From contig NZ_FOJU01000002.1 in NCBI RefSeq assembly GCF_900111875.1, positions 62,001 through 126,000 on the forward strand: a stretch of DNA of 64,000 bases. The letters run 5' to 3'. This DNA is from Poseidonocella pacifica. GTDB lineage: Bacteria; Pseudomonadota; Alphaproteobacteria; Rhodobacterales; Rhodobacteraceae. The first letter of the stretch is position 1; every line of letters starts with the position of its first letter. The translations under genes and the position numbers were made by a program. The notes under the pieces are model-generated. The model made no database searches and was not told the origin of the DNA. It saw nothing but the letters and a program-made list of their open reading frames with translations. Of this stretch, positions 37,966-45,271 are shown one piece after another.

Positions 37966-38274
37966 TGGTGCGGACGGCGGGACTCGAACCCGCACTCCCA
38001 TACAGGATGCAGATTTTCATACCACTTCGGCTTTCGCCGCCGCCGCGCACGCGCGCGACGTTCGTGGTCTGGACTATCCCTTCACCATAGCCCGAAAGCG
38101 TTAGGTGCCGCCCGTCTAGTCTCTACACCTTCCCCGGCTGGGGCTTGGCTCGGGATTGGCACAAGGGCGATATCACCCTCAAGCGTTCCCCGAATTTGAG
38201 CGGTTCTACTCCGCGCGTTTCCCCGCGGGCACTCCAATCAAAGTCTGCTGCGTCTACCATTTCGCCACGTCCGC
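37966..38274 (-). tRNA. tRNA-Leu(UAA), split by a group I intron
   Basis: Minus strand. The 5' exon is 38274-38241 (34 nt) and the 3' exon 38017-37966 (52 nt, CCA encoded), giving an 86-nt tRNA. The acceptor stem is GCGGACG/CGTCCGC with discriminator A. The D-arm region is GCGAAATGGTAGACGC, the anticodon stem GCAGA/TCTGC with loop CTTAAAA (anticodon UAA), and the T-arm GCGGG-TTCGAGT-CCCGC. The long variable arm (TCC/GGA stem) fits leucine. The exons join between anticodon bases U34 and A35. Confidence 0.95.
38018..38240 (-). ncRNA. group I intron (IC3-like) inside the tRNA-Leu(UAA) anticodon
   Basis: A 223-nt intron interrupting the anticodon loop after U34. The core elements, in order on the minus strand, are P (AAATTCGGGGAA), Q (AATCCCGAGCCAAG), R (GTGTAGAGACTAGACGGG) and S (GGATAGTCCAGACC). 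P4 forms TCGGG/CCCGA, P6 GCCCC/GGGG, P7 GACTA/TAGTC, P8 CACC/GGTG, and a GAAA-capped GGC/GCC hairpin near the 3' end resembles P9. The exon end ACTT can pair with GAGT in the intron (P1), with the usual U-G pair at the splice site. It ends in G, as required. No open reading frame is inside. Confidence 0.93.
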
Positions 38275-40469: not shown

Positions 40470-40473
<4 letters not shown>

Positions 40474-40940
40474 ACAAGTCCTGAGATGTCCGATTCCTTG
40501 ACCGACTGCATCGCCACGAAGGTGGAGGTATGCGCGACATGCGGGAGCGTGGAAATGCGCTCTCCCAATACCGAACGATAGGCACCCATGTCCTGTGTGC
40601 GTACCTTGAGGAGATAGTCGAAGTTGCCCGCAATCATATGGCACTGTTCAACTTCGCCTATCTTTGAGACTGCGGCATTGAACTCACTCAACGCACGCTC
40701 GCGGGTGTCAGAAAGGCGCACCTCAACAAAGGCGACATGGTCGAGCCCGAGGCGGATCGGATCAAGCATGGCGCGATAGCCGGTAATGACGCCTTCGCGC
40801 TCAAGCCGCCTGAGGCGCACTTGCGTAGGCGATTTCGACAAGCCGATCCGGCTCGCAAGTTCTGTGACACTCAACCGCCCATCCTCCGCAAGTTCAGCCA
40901 GAATTGCGCGGTCGAAACGATCAATGTCGGACGCATCCAT
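40470..40940 (-). CDS. putR: Lrp/AsnC family regulator, probable PutR
   Basis: A 156-residue regulator with helix-turn-helix (FDRAILAELAEDGRLS, IGLSKSPTQVRLRRLEREG) and RAM domain (VEQCHMIAGNFDYLLKVRT). The ATG at 40940 is chosen for the nearby AGGA; ATG 40952 is possible. It is divergent from putA, the known arrangement of PutR, which activates putA in response to proline; the name rests on that context. Confidence 0.85.
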
Positions 40941-41053
40941 TTTTCCTGTCATATCTGCCAAATTTTATCCCCCTTGACTGCCATACATCCTAAGTCGGGA
41001 CATTAGGCCCGTCAAACTGGGTTATGTTGGGTTAGAAATTTGGAGGGGCTGAC

Positions 41054-44000
41054 ATGGCTTTTGGACCATATGAAATCGATGAGATGACCTACGCGCGGGA
41101 AACGGAGGTTCTGAACAGGCTCGTTGTCGAAGCCGATCTTGCTCAGACTGACAGGGAACAGATCTCTGCCCGGGCTGCCGAACTGGTAAGGGCCATTCGC
41201 AACAGTGGTCGTCCGGGCATGATGGAATCATTCCTCGCCGAATACGGCCTGTCGACGGAAGAAGGGGTGGCGTTGATGTGCCTCGCTGAGGCGCTTCTTC
41301 GTGTTCCCGATTCCGAGACCATCGACGCGCTCATCGAAGACAAGATCGCCCCGTCTGACTGGGGCAAGCACATGGGGCATTCGGCCTCACCGCTCGTGAA
41401 CGCGTCTACATGGGCCTTGATGCTGACCGGCCGGGTTCTGAAAGACGAAGCGCCCGGGATAGCGGGCCATTTGCGCGGGGCTGTCCGCCGCCTTGGGGAG
41501 CCCGTTATCCGCACCGCCGTCGGCCGCGCGATGAAGGAGATGGGTCGTCAGTTCGTTCTTGGGGAAACAATTCATTCCGGCATGAAACGCGCGGAGGGCA
41601 TGGAAGCGAAGGGCTATACCTATTCTTATGACATGCTCGGAGAAGCGGCGCGTACCGATCACGACGCGCTACGCTATCACGAGAGTTATATGAAGGCCAT
41701 TCAGGCAATTGCCACGGCGTGCTCTCATGATGACATTCGGCAAAACCCCGGCATTTCGGTCAAGCTTTCGGCGCTGCATCCGCGGTACGAATTGGCCAAG
41801 CGGGAGGATGTCCTCGACGTTCTGGTACCCCGTTTGTCGAGCCTAACCCGTGCTGCCGCCGCTGCGGGCATGGGGCTCAATATCGATGCCGAGGAAGCCG
41901 CTCGCCTGGCCCTTTCGCTGGAGGTGATCGACGCGGTTCTTGCCGATCCAAAGCTGCAAGGTTGGGACGGATTCGGGGTTGTCGTTCAGGCCTACGGACC
42001 GAGAGCCGGCGCAACCATCGACTTTCTTTATCAACTGGCACAAAGGTTGGACCGGAGATTGATGGTTCGGCTGGTAAAGGGCGCCTATTGGGATACCGAG
42101 ATCAAGAAGGCGCAGGTCAAAGGTATCGACGGCTTCCCCGTCTTCACTTCCAAGGCGACCACCGACGTCAGCTATATCGCGAATGCGCGCAAGCTGCTTG
42201 GGATGACCGACCGCATCTACCCCCAATTCGCCACGCACAACGCCCATACTGTCGCTGCGGTTCTCCACATGGCTGACGATCTCGACACGTTCGAGTTTCA
42301 GCGACTTCACGGAATGGGCGAGACTTTGCACGACATCGTCGTGAAACGCGAAGGCACGCGGTGTCGCATCTATGCGCCCGTGGGCGCACACAAAGACCTT
42401 CTCGCCTACCTCGTCAGAAGGCTCCTGGAAAACGGCGCGAACAGCAGTTTCGTCAATCAAATCGTCGACGAGAACGTGCCCCCAGAAACGGTTGCGCAAG
42501 ATCCGTTCGGGAGTATCGCAGAGACCACGATCACCACAGGGAACGATCTTTTTCAGCCGGAGCGGGCGAACTCTCAGGGCATCGACCTCGACCACGAGCC
42601 TAGCCTTCGCGACATTCTTTTGCGGAGAGACACATTCGCCGACACGACGTGGAACGCGGCGCCGATCCTCGCCGGCGATGCCACTCCCGAAGCCTCGCGT
42701 CCGGTCGAAAATCCCTTTGCCCCCGACAAGTCGCCCGGTGATGTTTCTCCAGCAAGCCGGAGCGATGTGGATGTCGCTCTTTCAGCAGCAACCCCGTGGA
42801 ACGCCACGGCGGCGGACCGAGCGTGTATTCTTGCGAAGGCCGCGGACCTCTATGAGGCAAATACCGCCGAAATATTCGCCCTGCTTGCTCGTGAGGCTGG
42901 CAAGACCTTGCCCGACGCAGTGGCCGAATTGCGGGAGGCCGTGGATTTCCTCAGATTTTATGGGGCGAATGCCCCGGATCAGCCGCCCGTCGGACGGTTT
43001 GTCTGTATCAGCCCCTGGAACTTCCCGCTCGCGATTTTCACCGGTCAAATCGCCGCTGCTCTCGCTGCCGGAAATACGGTATTGGCGAAACCTGCCGAGC
43101 AAACACCGCTTATTGCAGCATTCGCTGTCCGGTTGCTCCACGAAGCAGGGGTTCCTGTCAGCGCCCTTCAACTTTTGCCCGGTGATGGCGGGATCGGTGC
43201 TGCGCTAACGGGCGATCCCCGGACAAACGGCGTTGCTTTCACGGGCTCCACACAAACAGCGAAAAAAATCCGTTCGTCGATGGCCGAAACTGGAACGCCA
43301 GATGCCCCGTTCATTGCCGAGACGGGTGGGTTGAATGCCATGATTGTAGATAGCACCGCCCTACCGGAACAAGCCGTGCAGGCGATCATGGAAAGTGCGT
43401 TCCAATCCGCGGGGCAGCGATGCTCTGCCCTTCGATGTCTCTATGTCCAAGAGGACATTGCTTCGTCGTTCATGGAATTGTTGAAGGGCGCGATGGACAC
43501 CTATCGCGCAAGTGATCCTTGGGACGCAGCAACAGATCTTGGCCCCGTGATCGACGCCGATGCAAGGCAGAGCATTGCGGATCATATCGAGCGTGCGAAG
43601 GAAAAAGGGCGCGTGCTCCATGAAGGCAAAGCGCCCTTGGCGGGGTATTTCATCGCCCCAACGCTCATTTCGATCGACGGGATCCAATATCTTGAAAGAG
43701 AAATCTTTGGCCCCGTTCTACACGTCGCAACGTATCGGGCGGGACAGATCGACCACGTGATCGACGCGATCAACGCAACTGGCTATGGGCTGACCTTCGG
43801 GCTTCAGACGCGCATTGATGACCGAGTACAGCATGTGACCGAACGGCTTCATGCGGGAAACATCTATGTGAACCGCAATCAGATTGGCGCAATTGTCGGC
43901 AGCCAACCATTCGGTGGCGAAGGGCTTTCCGGAACTGGCCCGAAAGCAGGTGGCTCGCAATACCTTCAGAGGTTCATTCGCAGGCCAGCGGAGGCGAGCG

Positions 44001-44467
44001 CCGAGAGTTGGGGCAATGAGATGCCCGTTGATGAACTCCAAGAAGCAATTGCTGAGGCACAGAAGACCGTAGCGCGCGAGCATGTCGAGATCCTGCCAGG
44101 GCCAACGGGGGAATCGAACCGCTATAGCCGCCGCCCGCGGCTGCCCCTTTTGTGCAGCGGACCCGGTCACGACACGACAAAGGCCCAAGCGCAAGCAGTC
44201 CGCGCTGCCGGTGGGCTCCCGGTCTGCGCCAGTGGCGAGATTTCTCCGCAACTGTTGGAAACACTTTCCGGAATATCCGGTGTCATTTGGTGGGGCCAGC
44301 CAGAAATGGCGCGCAACTACGCCAGATCCCTCGCCCGCCGAGATGGTCCGATCCTTCCGCTCATCACCGGCGTGCCGGATGCAGGGCACGCGACGTCCGA
44401 GCGCCACGTCTGTGTCGACACCACCGCGGCAGGTGGCAATGCGGCGCTCCTCGGGGCGGCCGGTTGA
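41054..44467 (+). CDS. putA: bifunctional proline dehydrogenase / pyrroline-5-carboxylate dehydrogenase
   Basis: Oxidises proline to glutamate in two steps in one 1137-residue chain. The FAD-dependent proline dehydrogenase barrel spans about residues 170-480, with GFGVVVQAYGPRA and RLMVRLVKGAYWDTEIKKAQ. The NAD aldehyde dehydrogenase half spans about 560-1000, with SPWNFPLAIFTGQIAAALAA, FTGSTQTAKK, ETGG and the nucleophile Cys790 in SAGQRCSALR. The C-terminus keeps PGPTGESNRYSRRPR. No DNA-binding ribbon-helix-helix is present at the N-terminus, so control is by the divergent Lrp gene. GGAGGGG precedes the ATG by six bases. Confidence 0.97.
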   Translation: MAFGPYEIDEMTYARETEVLNRLVVEADLAQTDREQISARAAELVRAIRNSGRPGMMESFLAEYGLSTEEGVALMCLAEALLRVPDSETIDALIEDKIAPSDWGKHMGHSASPLVNASTWALMLTGRVLKDEAPGIAGHLRGAVRRLGEPVIRTAVGRAMKEMGRQFVLGETIHSGMKRAEGMEAKGYTYSYDMLGEAARTDHDALRYHESYMKAIQAIATACSHDDIRQNPGISVKLSALHPRYELAKREDVLDVLVPRLSSLTRAAAAAGMGLNIDAEEAARLALSLEVIDAVLADPKLQGWDGFGVVVQAYGPRAGATIDFLYQLAQRLDRRLMVRLVKGAYWDTEIKKAQVKGIDGFPVFTSKATTDVSYIANARKLLGMTDRIYPQFATHNAHTVAAVLHMADDLDTFEFQRLHGMGETLHDIVVKREGTRCRIYAPVGAHKDLLAYLVRRLLENGANSSFVNQIVDENVPPETVAQDPFGSIAETTITTGNDLFQPERANSQGIDLDHEPSLRDILLRRDTFADTTWNAAPILAGDATPEASRPVENPFAPDKSPGDVSPASRSDVDVALSAATPWNATAADRACILAKAADLYEANTAEIFALLAREAGKTLPDAVAELREAVDFLRFYGANAPDQPPVGRFVCISPWNFPLAIFTGQIAAALAAGNTVLAKPAEQTPLIAAFAVRLLHEAGVPVSALQLLPGDGGIGAALTGDPRTNGVAFTGSTQTAKKIRSSMAETGTPDAPFIAETGGLNAMIVDSTALPEQAVQAIMESAFQSAGQRCSALRCLYVQEDIASSFMELLKGAMDTYRASDPWDAATDLGPVIDADARQSIADHIERAKEKGRVLHEGKAPLAGYFIAPTLISIDGIQYLEREIFGPVLHVATYRAGQIDHVIDAINATGYGLTFGLQTRIDDRVQHVTERLHAGNIYVNRNQIGAIVGSQPFGGEGLSGTGPKAGGSQYLQRFIRRPAEASAESWGNEMPVDELQEAIAEAQKTVAREHVEILPGPTGESNRYSRRPRLPLLCSGPGHDTTKAQAQAVRAAGGLPVCASGEISPQLLETLSGISGVIWWGQPEMARNYARSLARRDGPILPLITGVPDAGHATSERHVCVDTTAAGGNAALLGAAG

Positions 44468-44524: not shown

Positions 44525-45271
44525 ATGTTCCCGATACGCGATCACAATCCTTCAAGCCGAACCCCGTGGGTGACCTACGCGCTCATCGCGGCAAACATCG
44601 TGGTTTTTCTCGCGAACTGGCAACTCTTCGAAACGCCGCGCGCACTCGATGAATTTTATGCCGCTTTCGCCGTGATCCCCGCACGGGTTTCCTATGGCGA
44701 AGGGGTGGAGACTCTCGTCACCTCGATGTTTCTGCATGGGGGCGTGATGCATCTTCTTGGCAACATGCTCTTTCTCTACATCTTTGGTGACAACCTCGAA
44801 GATGAGATGGGGCATCTTCCATTCGCGCTTTTTTATGTGGCCTGCGGCGTTGGCGCCGGGCTCGTACATGTCGTTTCTGCCCCCGGATCGATTGTGCCAA
44901 CGATCGGCGCGTCTGGCGCCATTGCGGGCGTCATGGGGGGGTATCTGCTTTTGTTTCCACGGGCGCGCGTGGATATTCTCATCATCCTGATCATCATCTT
45001 CCGCGTTGTGCCGATCCCGGCGTGGCTCATGCTTGCCCTGTGGTTCGGCATGCAGTTCGTAGGCGGGCTCGGGTCCGATCCCATGGCGGGCGGAGTGGCC
45101 TATTGGGCCCATGCGGGTGGCTTCGTGATCGGGATCTTGCTCACCCTGCCGCTCTGGGTTCGCTTGGGCGGGCCCCGCTATTGGAGCCTTACCGACGGGC
45201 ACCCACCGCACCCCGACTCGAGGTACCGCAGCGCATGGTCCGATGTTCCAATCGTGAGGCGAAAGTCATGA
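44525..45271 (+). CDS. rhomboid family intramembrane serine protease
   Basis: A six-helix membrane protein (248 aa). The catalytic serine is Ser130 in IGASGAIAG and the histidine is His196 in WAHAGGF. HGGVMHLLGNM (71-81) is the conserved HxxxHxxGN helix. Cleavage targets are unknown. The stop overlaps the start of the GFA-like gene (ATGA). It follows putA by 57 bases and could be read through from it. Confidence 0.93.
   Translation: MFPIRDHNPSSRTPWVTYALIAANIVVFLANWQLFETPRALDEFYAAFAVIPARVSYGEGVETLVTSMFLHGGVMHLLGNMLFLYIFGDNLEDEMGHLPFALFYVACGVGAGLVHVVSAPGSIVPTIGASGAIAGVMGGYLLLFPRARVDILIILIIIFRVVPIPAWLMLALWFGMQFVGGLGSDPMAGGVAYWAHAGGFVIGILLTLPLWVRLGGPRYWSLTDGHPPHPDSRYRSAWSDVPIVRRKS

Follow-up and report, generated by a model that had tools for sequence, protein, structure and literature searches.

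The sole tRNA-Leu(UAA) gene that we found in Poseidonocella pacifica very probably contains a working group I intron with a proteobacterial history, and in this family split genes probably come and go chiefly through exchange of the entire tRNA gene. Both the splicing and the dependence on it are deduced from sequence. The window analyzed is a stretch of 64,000 nt from this member of the Rhodobacteraceae (GCF_900111875.1, NZ_FOJU01000002.1 positions 62,001-126,000). On its minus strand, from 38274 to 37966, lies a complete tRNA-Leu(UAA) gene of 309 nt interrupted by 223 nt between U34 and A35, exactly as the original prediction had placed it. The parts of the gene, all on the minus strand, are listed here with the evidence for each.

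38241..38274, minus strand, tRNA-Leu(UAA) 5' exon from the first base to U34 (the joined exons are tRNA-Leu(taa) by ARAGORN)
38018..38240, minus strand, group I intron of 223 nt with G as its last base (RF00028, 52.7 bits; covariation supports the structure)
37966..38017, minus strand, tRNA-Leu(UAA) 3' exon from A35 to the encoded CCA (sequence; ARAGORN on the joined exons)
38231..38234, minus strand, internal guide sequence GAGU, pairing with exon ACUU (P1) and giving the splice-site U34.G (drawn structure)
38198..38203, minus strand, P3 5' strand CCGCUC, partner GGGCGG at 38108-38113 (drawn structure, alignment)
38189..38194, minus strand, P4 5' strand UUCGGG, partner CCCGAG at 38149-38154 (drawn structure, alignment)
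38117..38121, minus strand, P7 5' strand GACUA of the guanosine-site helix, partner UAGUC at 38072-38076 (drawn structure, alignment)
38218..38221, minus strand, L2 GAAA tetraloop (read from sequence; alignment)
38032..38035, minus strand, L9 GAAA tetraloop capping GGC/GCC (read from sequence; helix 100% paired in the alignment)

A search of the 64 kb with the Rfam model RF00028 (Intron_gpI) returned a single match at the gathering threshold, the tRNA-Leu insert, which at 52.7 bits is just over the required 50 (E 1.5e-10). The match spans the full model (1-253), with none of the failure on the core that had been named beforehand as the sign of a wrong call. When the exons were joined in silico, ARAGORN named the 86-nt product tRNA-Leu(taa), which agrees with the predicted identity. 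With default settings, ARAGORN reported no tRNA in the 64-kb window, and when introns were allowed, it set the junction off by one base and misnamed the gene tRNA-Phe(gaa), bearing out the expectation that a plain tRNA search would miss or misplace the gene. Subgroup IC3 is defined as small tRNA introns with GNRA loops L2 and L9. Both loops are present in the window intron as GAAA, and the intron, read by eye, may be of an IC3-like kind. It is too short to leave room for a homing endonuclease gene.

To evaluate the structure drawn on the window sequence (P1, P2, P3, P4, P5, P6, P6a, P7, P8, P9, and P9b), we used an alignment of 59 non-redundant Leu(UAA) introns from which cyanobacteria were left out. 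The drawn P1-P9 structure paired in 97.1% of cells, compared with a mean of 87.7% after shuffling. Structures slid by 1-3 columns paired in just 28-45% of cells, a control that somewhat favors the drawn structure because the structure came from one of the sequences. Double changes, unlike the slid controls, are independent of how the structure was derived: both sides had changed in 24 of 45 pairs against a shuffled mean of 13.2, and none of 500 shuffles reached 24. P3 and P7 were paired in 100% of cells, with both-side changes in three of six and three of five pairs, respectively; P8 was likewise 100% paired with compensatory changes, P4 was paired in 96.0% of cells, and the weakest helix, P2, in 87.5%. 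Two P7 pairs had changed together in three non-alphaproteobacterial introns of the phylum sample (L224, L259, and L260), and the splice-site U.G was invariant in all 59 aligned introns. The structure is above chance, and the P3-P8 catalytic core, including the P3/P7 pseudoknot, is present and covarying. The core pairings, guide sequence, U.G pair, and terminal G that had been called readable from the letters are all there.

In the mechanism we propose, folding of the precursor would bring GAGU, the guide sequence, into pairing with ACUU at the end of the 5' exon and place U34.G at the splice site. By analogy with the group I family, free guanosine bound at P7 would attack after U34, the freed U34 would then attack after the last intron G, and the joining of U34 to A35 would yield mature tRNA-Leu(UAA). 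A loose guide-sequence test that used foreign exons as a control gave no discrimination.

The need for this reaction depends on what other leucine tRNA genes the P. pacifica genome holds (G000; 11 contigs, 99.78% complete). The Rfam tRNA model gave 39 tRNA places, at each of which ARAGORN names a tRNA, and the leucine anticodons among them are TAG, CAA, CAG, and GAG only; this list is incomplete, since ARAGORN saw an adjoining tRNA-Tyr outside the 39. An exact pattern for the arm of an unsplit tRNA-Leu(UAA) had 0 matches in the genome, and a loose pattern matched Leu(CAA) only. A second intact tRNA-Leu(UAA), which by the original prediction would have made the split gene dispensable, was found by neither the tRNA model, ARAGORN, nor the exact and loose patterns, and the split gene should therefore have to splice. 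Across the family, 13 of the 14 genomes with a Leu intron had no unsplit copy by the loose pattern, while an unsplit Leu(UAA) arm was found in 38 of 40 genomes without a detected intron (16 genomes, then 22 of the remaining 24). That split and unsplit genes mostly exclude each other is as expected if the split gene works. A degenerate intron in a dispensable tRNA gene is very improbable. Such decay would be in keeping with the relative G138, which carries both a split and an unsplit tRNA-Leu(UAA) with different exons (L010 and L290), and with a case for splicing that is made from sequence; but it is hard to square with helices that are intact and covarying, with an intron present in both sampled genomes of the genus Poseidonocella, and with a genome in which we found no other UAA gene.

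The proteobacterial tRNA introns cited in the original prediction, those in tRNA-Arg(CCU) and tRNA-Ile(CAU), agree with the available parts of the literature, yet Leu(UAA) proved to be the commonest host in our samples. RF00028 matched 20 introns in 19 of 248 Rhodobacteraceae genomes. When hosts were assigned by joining and reading the exons, 14 of the 20 lay in Leu(UAA) after position 34, two in Arg(CCU), two in Thr(GGU), and one in Thr(UGU), all five after position 36, and one in Arg(UCU) after position 34. A covariance model built from these 20 introns (R1) found matches in 49 of 385 genomes of a class sample (Alphaproteobacteria) and in 41 of 398 genomes of a phylum sample, the two samples overlapping. 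For the class sample, hosts were assigned to 48 of 59 matches (18 Leu(UAA), 11 Lys, nine Arg(CCU), four Thr(GGU), four Leu(CAA), and two Thr(CGU)); the other 11, and four tabulated loci of the phylum sample, were left unassigned. Leu(UAA) is the commonest host both in the family (14 of 20) and in the class (18 of 48).

A pattern scan of named genomes, which under-samples cyanobacteria, returned at least 116 stretches, of which at least 109 had a proven Leu(UAA) exon pair and seven had no provable pair. The proven set comprised at least 69 Alphaproteobacteria (at least 17 Hyphomicrobiales, 15 Caulobacterales, 14 Rhodobacterales, and 12 Sphingomonadales, besides others), at least 19 Cyanobacteriota, at least nine Acidobacteriota, at least seven unplaced Pseudomonadota, at least two Gammaproteobacteria, at least one member of the Binatota, and at least two records without taxonomy. 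Introns at exactly U34/A35 recur across many alphaproteobacterial orders and some Acidobacteriota. One of the gammaproteobacterial rows, a split trnL in a metagenome-assembled genome labeled Tatlockia (L111, a Legionellales bin), looks cyanobacterial and is probably contamination.

Several observations concern introns in other hosts or settings. Related introns were seen in Thr(GGU), Thr(UGU), Thr(CGU), Lys(CUU/UUU), Arg(UCU), and Leu(CAA) genes of Alphaproteobacteria, after position 33, 34, 35, or 36; introns in hosts other than Leu(UAA) are found at L007, L009, L014, and L015 in the family and at several of the loci L199-L249 in the class. We know of no descriptions of alphaproteobacterial introns in those Thr, Lys, Arg(UCU), and Leu(CAA) hosts. 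Outside the Alphaproteobacteria, three Leu(CAA) introns (L255, L261, and L263) follow C34, where the usual splice-site U.G would be C-G. Locus L252 (G483:C76:1735-2746) shows two model matches about 280 bases apart, as if an intron carried an inserted segment, and its flanks resemble the 5' and 3' exons of one tRNA-Leu(UAA). Introns of the R1 type also occur in phage and megaplasmid DNA, namely, Gordonia phage Daredevil (L379:1403-1659, 152 bits), a 595-kb phage (L378:1390-1611, 105 bits), and a Tritonibacter megaplasmid (L380:1374-1620, 152 bits). By eye, the flanks are like tRNA anticodon arms, Lys-like in Daredevil and Thr(UGU)-like in Tritonibacter. The phage introns known to a 2014 review were all in protein genes.

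Among known systems, the cyanobacterial and plastid trnL(UAA) intron shares its host tRNA, the site U34/A35, and the style of its group I core with the window intron. The small group I intron in the anticodon loop of tRNA-Ile(CAU) of Betaproteobacteria, of the Azoarcus type, is like the window intron in its size and general position. The two Ile(CAU) introns of our phylum sample lie after position 36 and are about 61% identical to the window core. The alphaproteobacterial Arg(CCU) introns, known from Agrobacterium and as BbgpI of Bartonella bacilliformis, belong to the same clan, size class, and host class as the window intron, and BbgpI splices in vivo and in vitro according to PMC7717549. 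Arg(CCU) introns differ in their host tRNA, which they interrupt behind U36, and in a guide sequence that fits the anticodon found there; 18 of them from Alphaproteobacteria had a mean identity of 74% to the window core, a comparison that did not include BbgpI.

We then compared the introns in a tree built from 183 conserved core columns, excluding the exons and the first 14 and last eight intron bases. From 206 rows, 110 were kept, the others being near-duplicates and eight long-branch rows that included the two Ile(CAU) introns. In this unrooted tree, whose bootstrap had yet to converge, support is mostly weak within the largest group, a clade of 87 rows. The cyanobacterial introns formed their own clade (100/100) on a long branch, and the row nearest to them was a non-alphaproteobacterial Arg(UCU) intron (98/92). 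In the 87-row clade (99/97), the Leu(UAA) introns of Proteobacteria and Acidobacteriota were joined by introns of Arg(CCU), Thr(GGU), Arg(UCU), and, after position 34, Lys(UUU) and Leu(CAA); other Lys, Thr, and Leu(CAA) introns fell outside it. Best core identities to the window intron were 87.2% for alphaproteobacterial Leu(UAA), 81.7% for Arg(CCU), 77.2% for Thr(GGU), and 65.3% for cyanobacteria (19 compared). Placing all Leu(UAA) introns in one clade was rejected in the wider set (p 0.0035). The same test with Leu(UAA) and Arg(CCU) rows only was not significant (p 0.109), so that part of the case for nesting comes from Lys, Thr, and Leu(CAA) introns, which are more divergent.

These results bear on two claims of the original prediction. 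Its likeness to the cyanobacterial trnL intron holds for the site; core identity is at most 65.3%. The transfer from cyanobacteria that it entertained is, as a recent event, not supported by the separate placement of the cyanobacterial introns, although the introns at this site may share a deep origin. A recent cyanobacterial source, whether for the intron or for trnL as a whole, is in our estimate extremely improbable: the identical site U34/A35 and the similar core would fit such an origin, but against it speak the 100/100 clade, the rejected one-clade placement (p 0.0035), and a best identity below that of most proteobacterial intron groups at other sites, the Arg(CCU) and Thr(GGU) introns among them.

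Since the proteobacterial Leu introns mingle with Arg, Thr, Lys, and Leu(CAA) introns, movement between tRNA genes is likely, with one of the two one-clade tests not significant. The window intron has no endonuclease; its clan occupies several tRNA genes, with probable transfer from one to another. Leu(UAA) and Leu(CAA) introns coexist in two genomes from outside the Alphaproteobacteria (G961 and G978) and fall in one six-row clade (100/100), which suggests movement between the two leucine tRNAs.

The genes downstream of the window gene encode a 4-hydroxybenzoate 3-monooxygenase, an AraC-type regulator, an Lrp/AsnC-type regulator, and putA. Two of them mark a locus that split and unsplit genes share.

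40470-40961, minus strand, Lrp/AsnC-type regulator (family assigned), marking the locus shared by split and unsplit genes
41054-44467, plus strand, putA (family assigned), marking the same shared locus

We looked for these neighbors around 160 split and 47 unsplit loci, in flanks that were mostly 1.5 kb long. Apart from the window, seven distinct split loci have the regulator or putA next to them (L069 and L091 seem to duplicate L003 and L005), as do 15 unsplit loci, and the ilvC and 4-hydroxybenzoate monooxygenase genes of the window were found beside no other locus tested. In a second genome of the genus (G071), a homologue of the window gene at 44525-45271 (73.8%, tblastn) stands beside the split gene, so this locus is related too. 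A tree of the linked regulator with eight split and 16 unsplit rows required at least four state changes by its starred branches and six as drawn, a count no lower than in many shuffles (165-173 of 500 were as low) for a short protein with many weak branches.

The exons differ between the two kinds of gene. Position 24 is G in 30 of 31 split and nine of 47 unsplit genes of the family with duplicates included, and in 17 of 18 split and nine of 38 unsplit genes when distinct exon arms are counted (Fisher p 9e-7, only indicative because the sequences are related). As a second comparison, exons of the family's split genes were nearer to split exons of other orders than to the family's own unsplit genes in 30 of 30 cases, near-duplicates included, whereas in the control, the family's unsplit exons were nearer to split than to unsplit exons of other orders in 15 of 47, with seven ties; with distinct arms and equal samples, the values were 96% and 28%. 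The 43 compared exon bases of the window gene are identical to those of Camelimonas lactis, a member of another order. With a shared locus yet different exons, the best and simplest reading is whole tRNA-gene replacement in the Rhodobacteraceae, exons and intron together. Split genes would have been gained and lost there mainly in this way, the direction of each event being a matter of interpretation. G138, with both kinds of gene, looks like an intermediate. The exon likeness could partly reflect selection for splicing rather than co-transfer.

The original prediction also considered ancient inheritance. It is possible, though unlikely, that the Leu(UAA) intron predates the split between Cyanobacteria and Proteobacteria, descended vertically with many losses, and seeded the introns of other tRNAs. 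An ancient intron would account for the same site in Cyanobacteriota, Pseudomonadota, Acidobacteriota, and at least one Binatota record; it is compatible with the unrooted tree and with the p of 0.109 for Leu and Arg(CCU) introns alone. Against this, the intron has a patchy distribution, with 14 of 248 genomes in the family; the tree of the linked regulator requires four changes or more; exons travel with the intron between orders; and the wider set gave a p of 0.0035. We favor a proteobacterial history with replacement of whole genes.

A further copy of the split gene lies in a resistance module of Enterobacterales plasmids. The window gene matched 1297 of 72,556 plasmid records, 1270 of them over at least 80% of the gene length, and identity was 83.3% over all 309 bases in 55 of 60 evenly sampled records; among the matching records, 944 are classed as conjugative. 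In pCTX-M3 and in two others, the match is flanked on one side by tmrB (annotated as an 'AAA family ATPase' or as a 'tunicamycin resistance protein') and on the other by a reading frame of 192 bp, with aac(3)-II adjacent.

L374:6001-6299 (NC_004464.2:61823-62121), also L375, L376, and L377, complete split tRNA-Leu(UAA) in the resistance module (sequence match)

PMC7096625 draws this place as aacC2-tmrB-orf192-orf228. R1 scored the plasmid copy at 228.5 bits over its full length in all three records, compared with 231 for the window, while Rfam at the gathering threshold reported no group I intron in L374. With the 299-base gene as query, matches were found in 635 of 5426 complete Escherichia coli genomes (624 over at least 80% of the length), at 589 places on plasmids and 81 on chromosomes, and in all but two of 658 records (656) the best place had at least 99% identity. 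A query with the aac(3)-IId gene matched 909 of the 5426 genomes. No feature was annotated under the match in the 12 records listed of the 658 PGAP-annotated E. coli records, and the region table for one chromosome likewise showed none. As RNA genes are not part of the plasmid collection's annotation, a missing entry there says little.

Of the loci compared, the two nearest to the plasmid copy come from Hyphomicrobiales, namely, Enterovirga aerilata at 95.4% and a Bradyrhizobiaceae record at 95.0%, and no homologues of the module's neighboring proteins were found in the flanks of the loci compared. The aacC2-tmrB [aac(3)-IId] module thus has, like the window, a complete tRNA-Leu(UAA) with this intron type, although its copy is borne on plasmids or islands in Gammaproteobacteria. 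As judged from these matches, a complete split tRNA gene of alphaproteobacterial type has entered the Gammaproteobacteria with its exons, beside a gentamicin-resistance gene, a hint that the aac(3)-IId-tmrB module once resided in a Hyphomicrobiales-like genome of the Alphaproteobacteria. With middling confidence, we propose more broadly that the whole split tRNA-Leu(UAA) gene is often the moving unit in Proteobacteria, replacing the resident gene and carrying its exons across orders and classes, and that one copy, which has spread on aac(3)-IId-tmrB to roughly 12% of complete E. coli genomes, has been overlooked there and is probably a working group I intron within an extra alphaproteobacterial tRNA-Leu.

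Our search of open-access papers turned up neither a report of a proteobacterial tRNA-Leu(UAA) intron nor any mention that the aac(3)-IId module holds a tRNA or a group I intron. Accounts of the tRNA-Leu(UAA) intron usually have it inherited vertically in cyanobacteria and plastids. In many Alphaproteobacteria and some Acidobacteriota, the same site is held by introns of a different clan, one closely related to introns in tRNA-Arg, -Thr, -Lys, and -Leu(CAA), which opens both intron transfer among tRNA genes and repeated occupation of a single site to direct tests. Because a plain tRNA search misses split genes, genomes that carry them seem to lack part of their tRNA set. With the plasmid copy, a ribozyme of this clan is present at full length in a host that has been studied in great detail.
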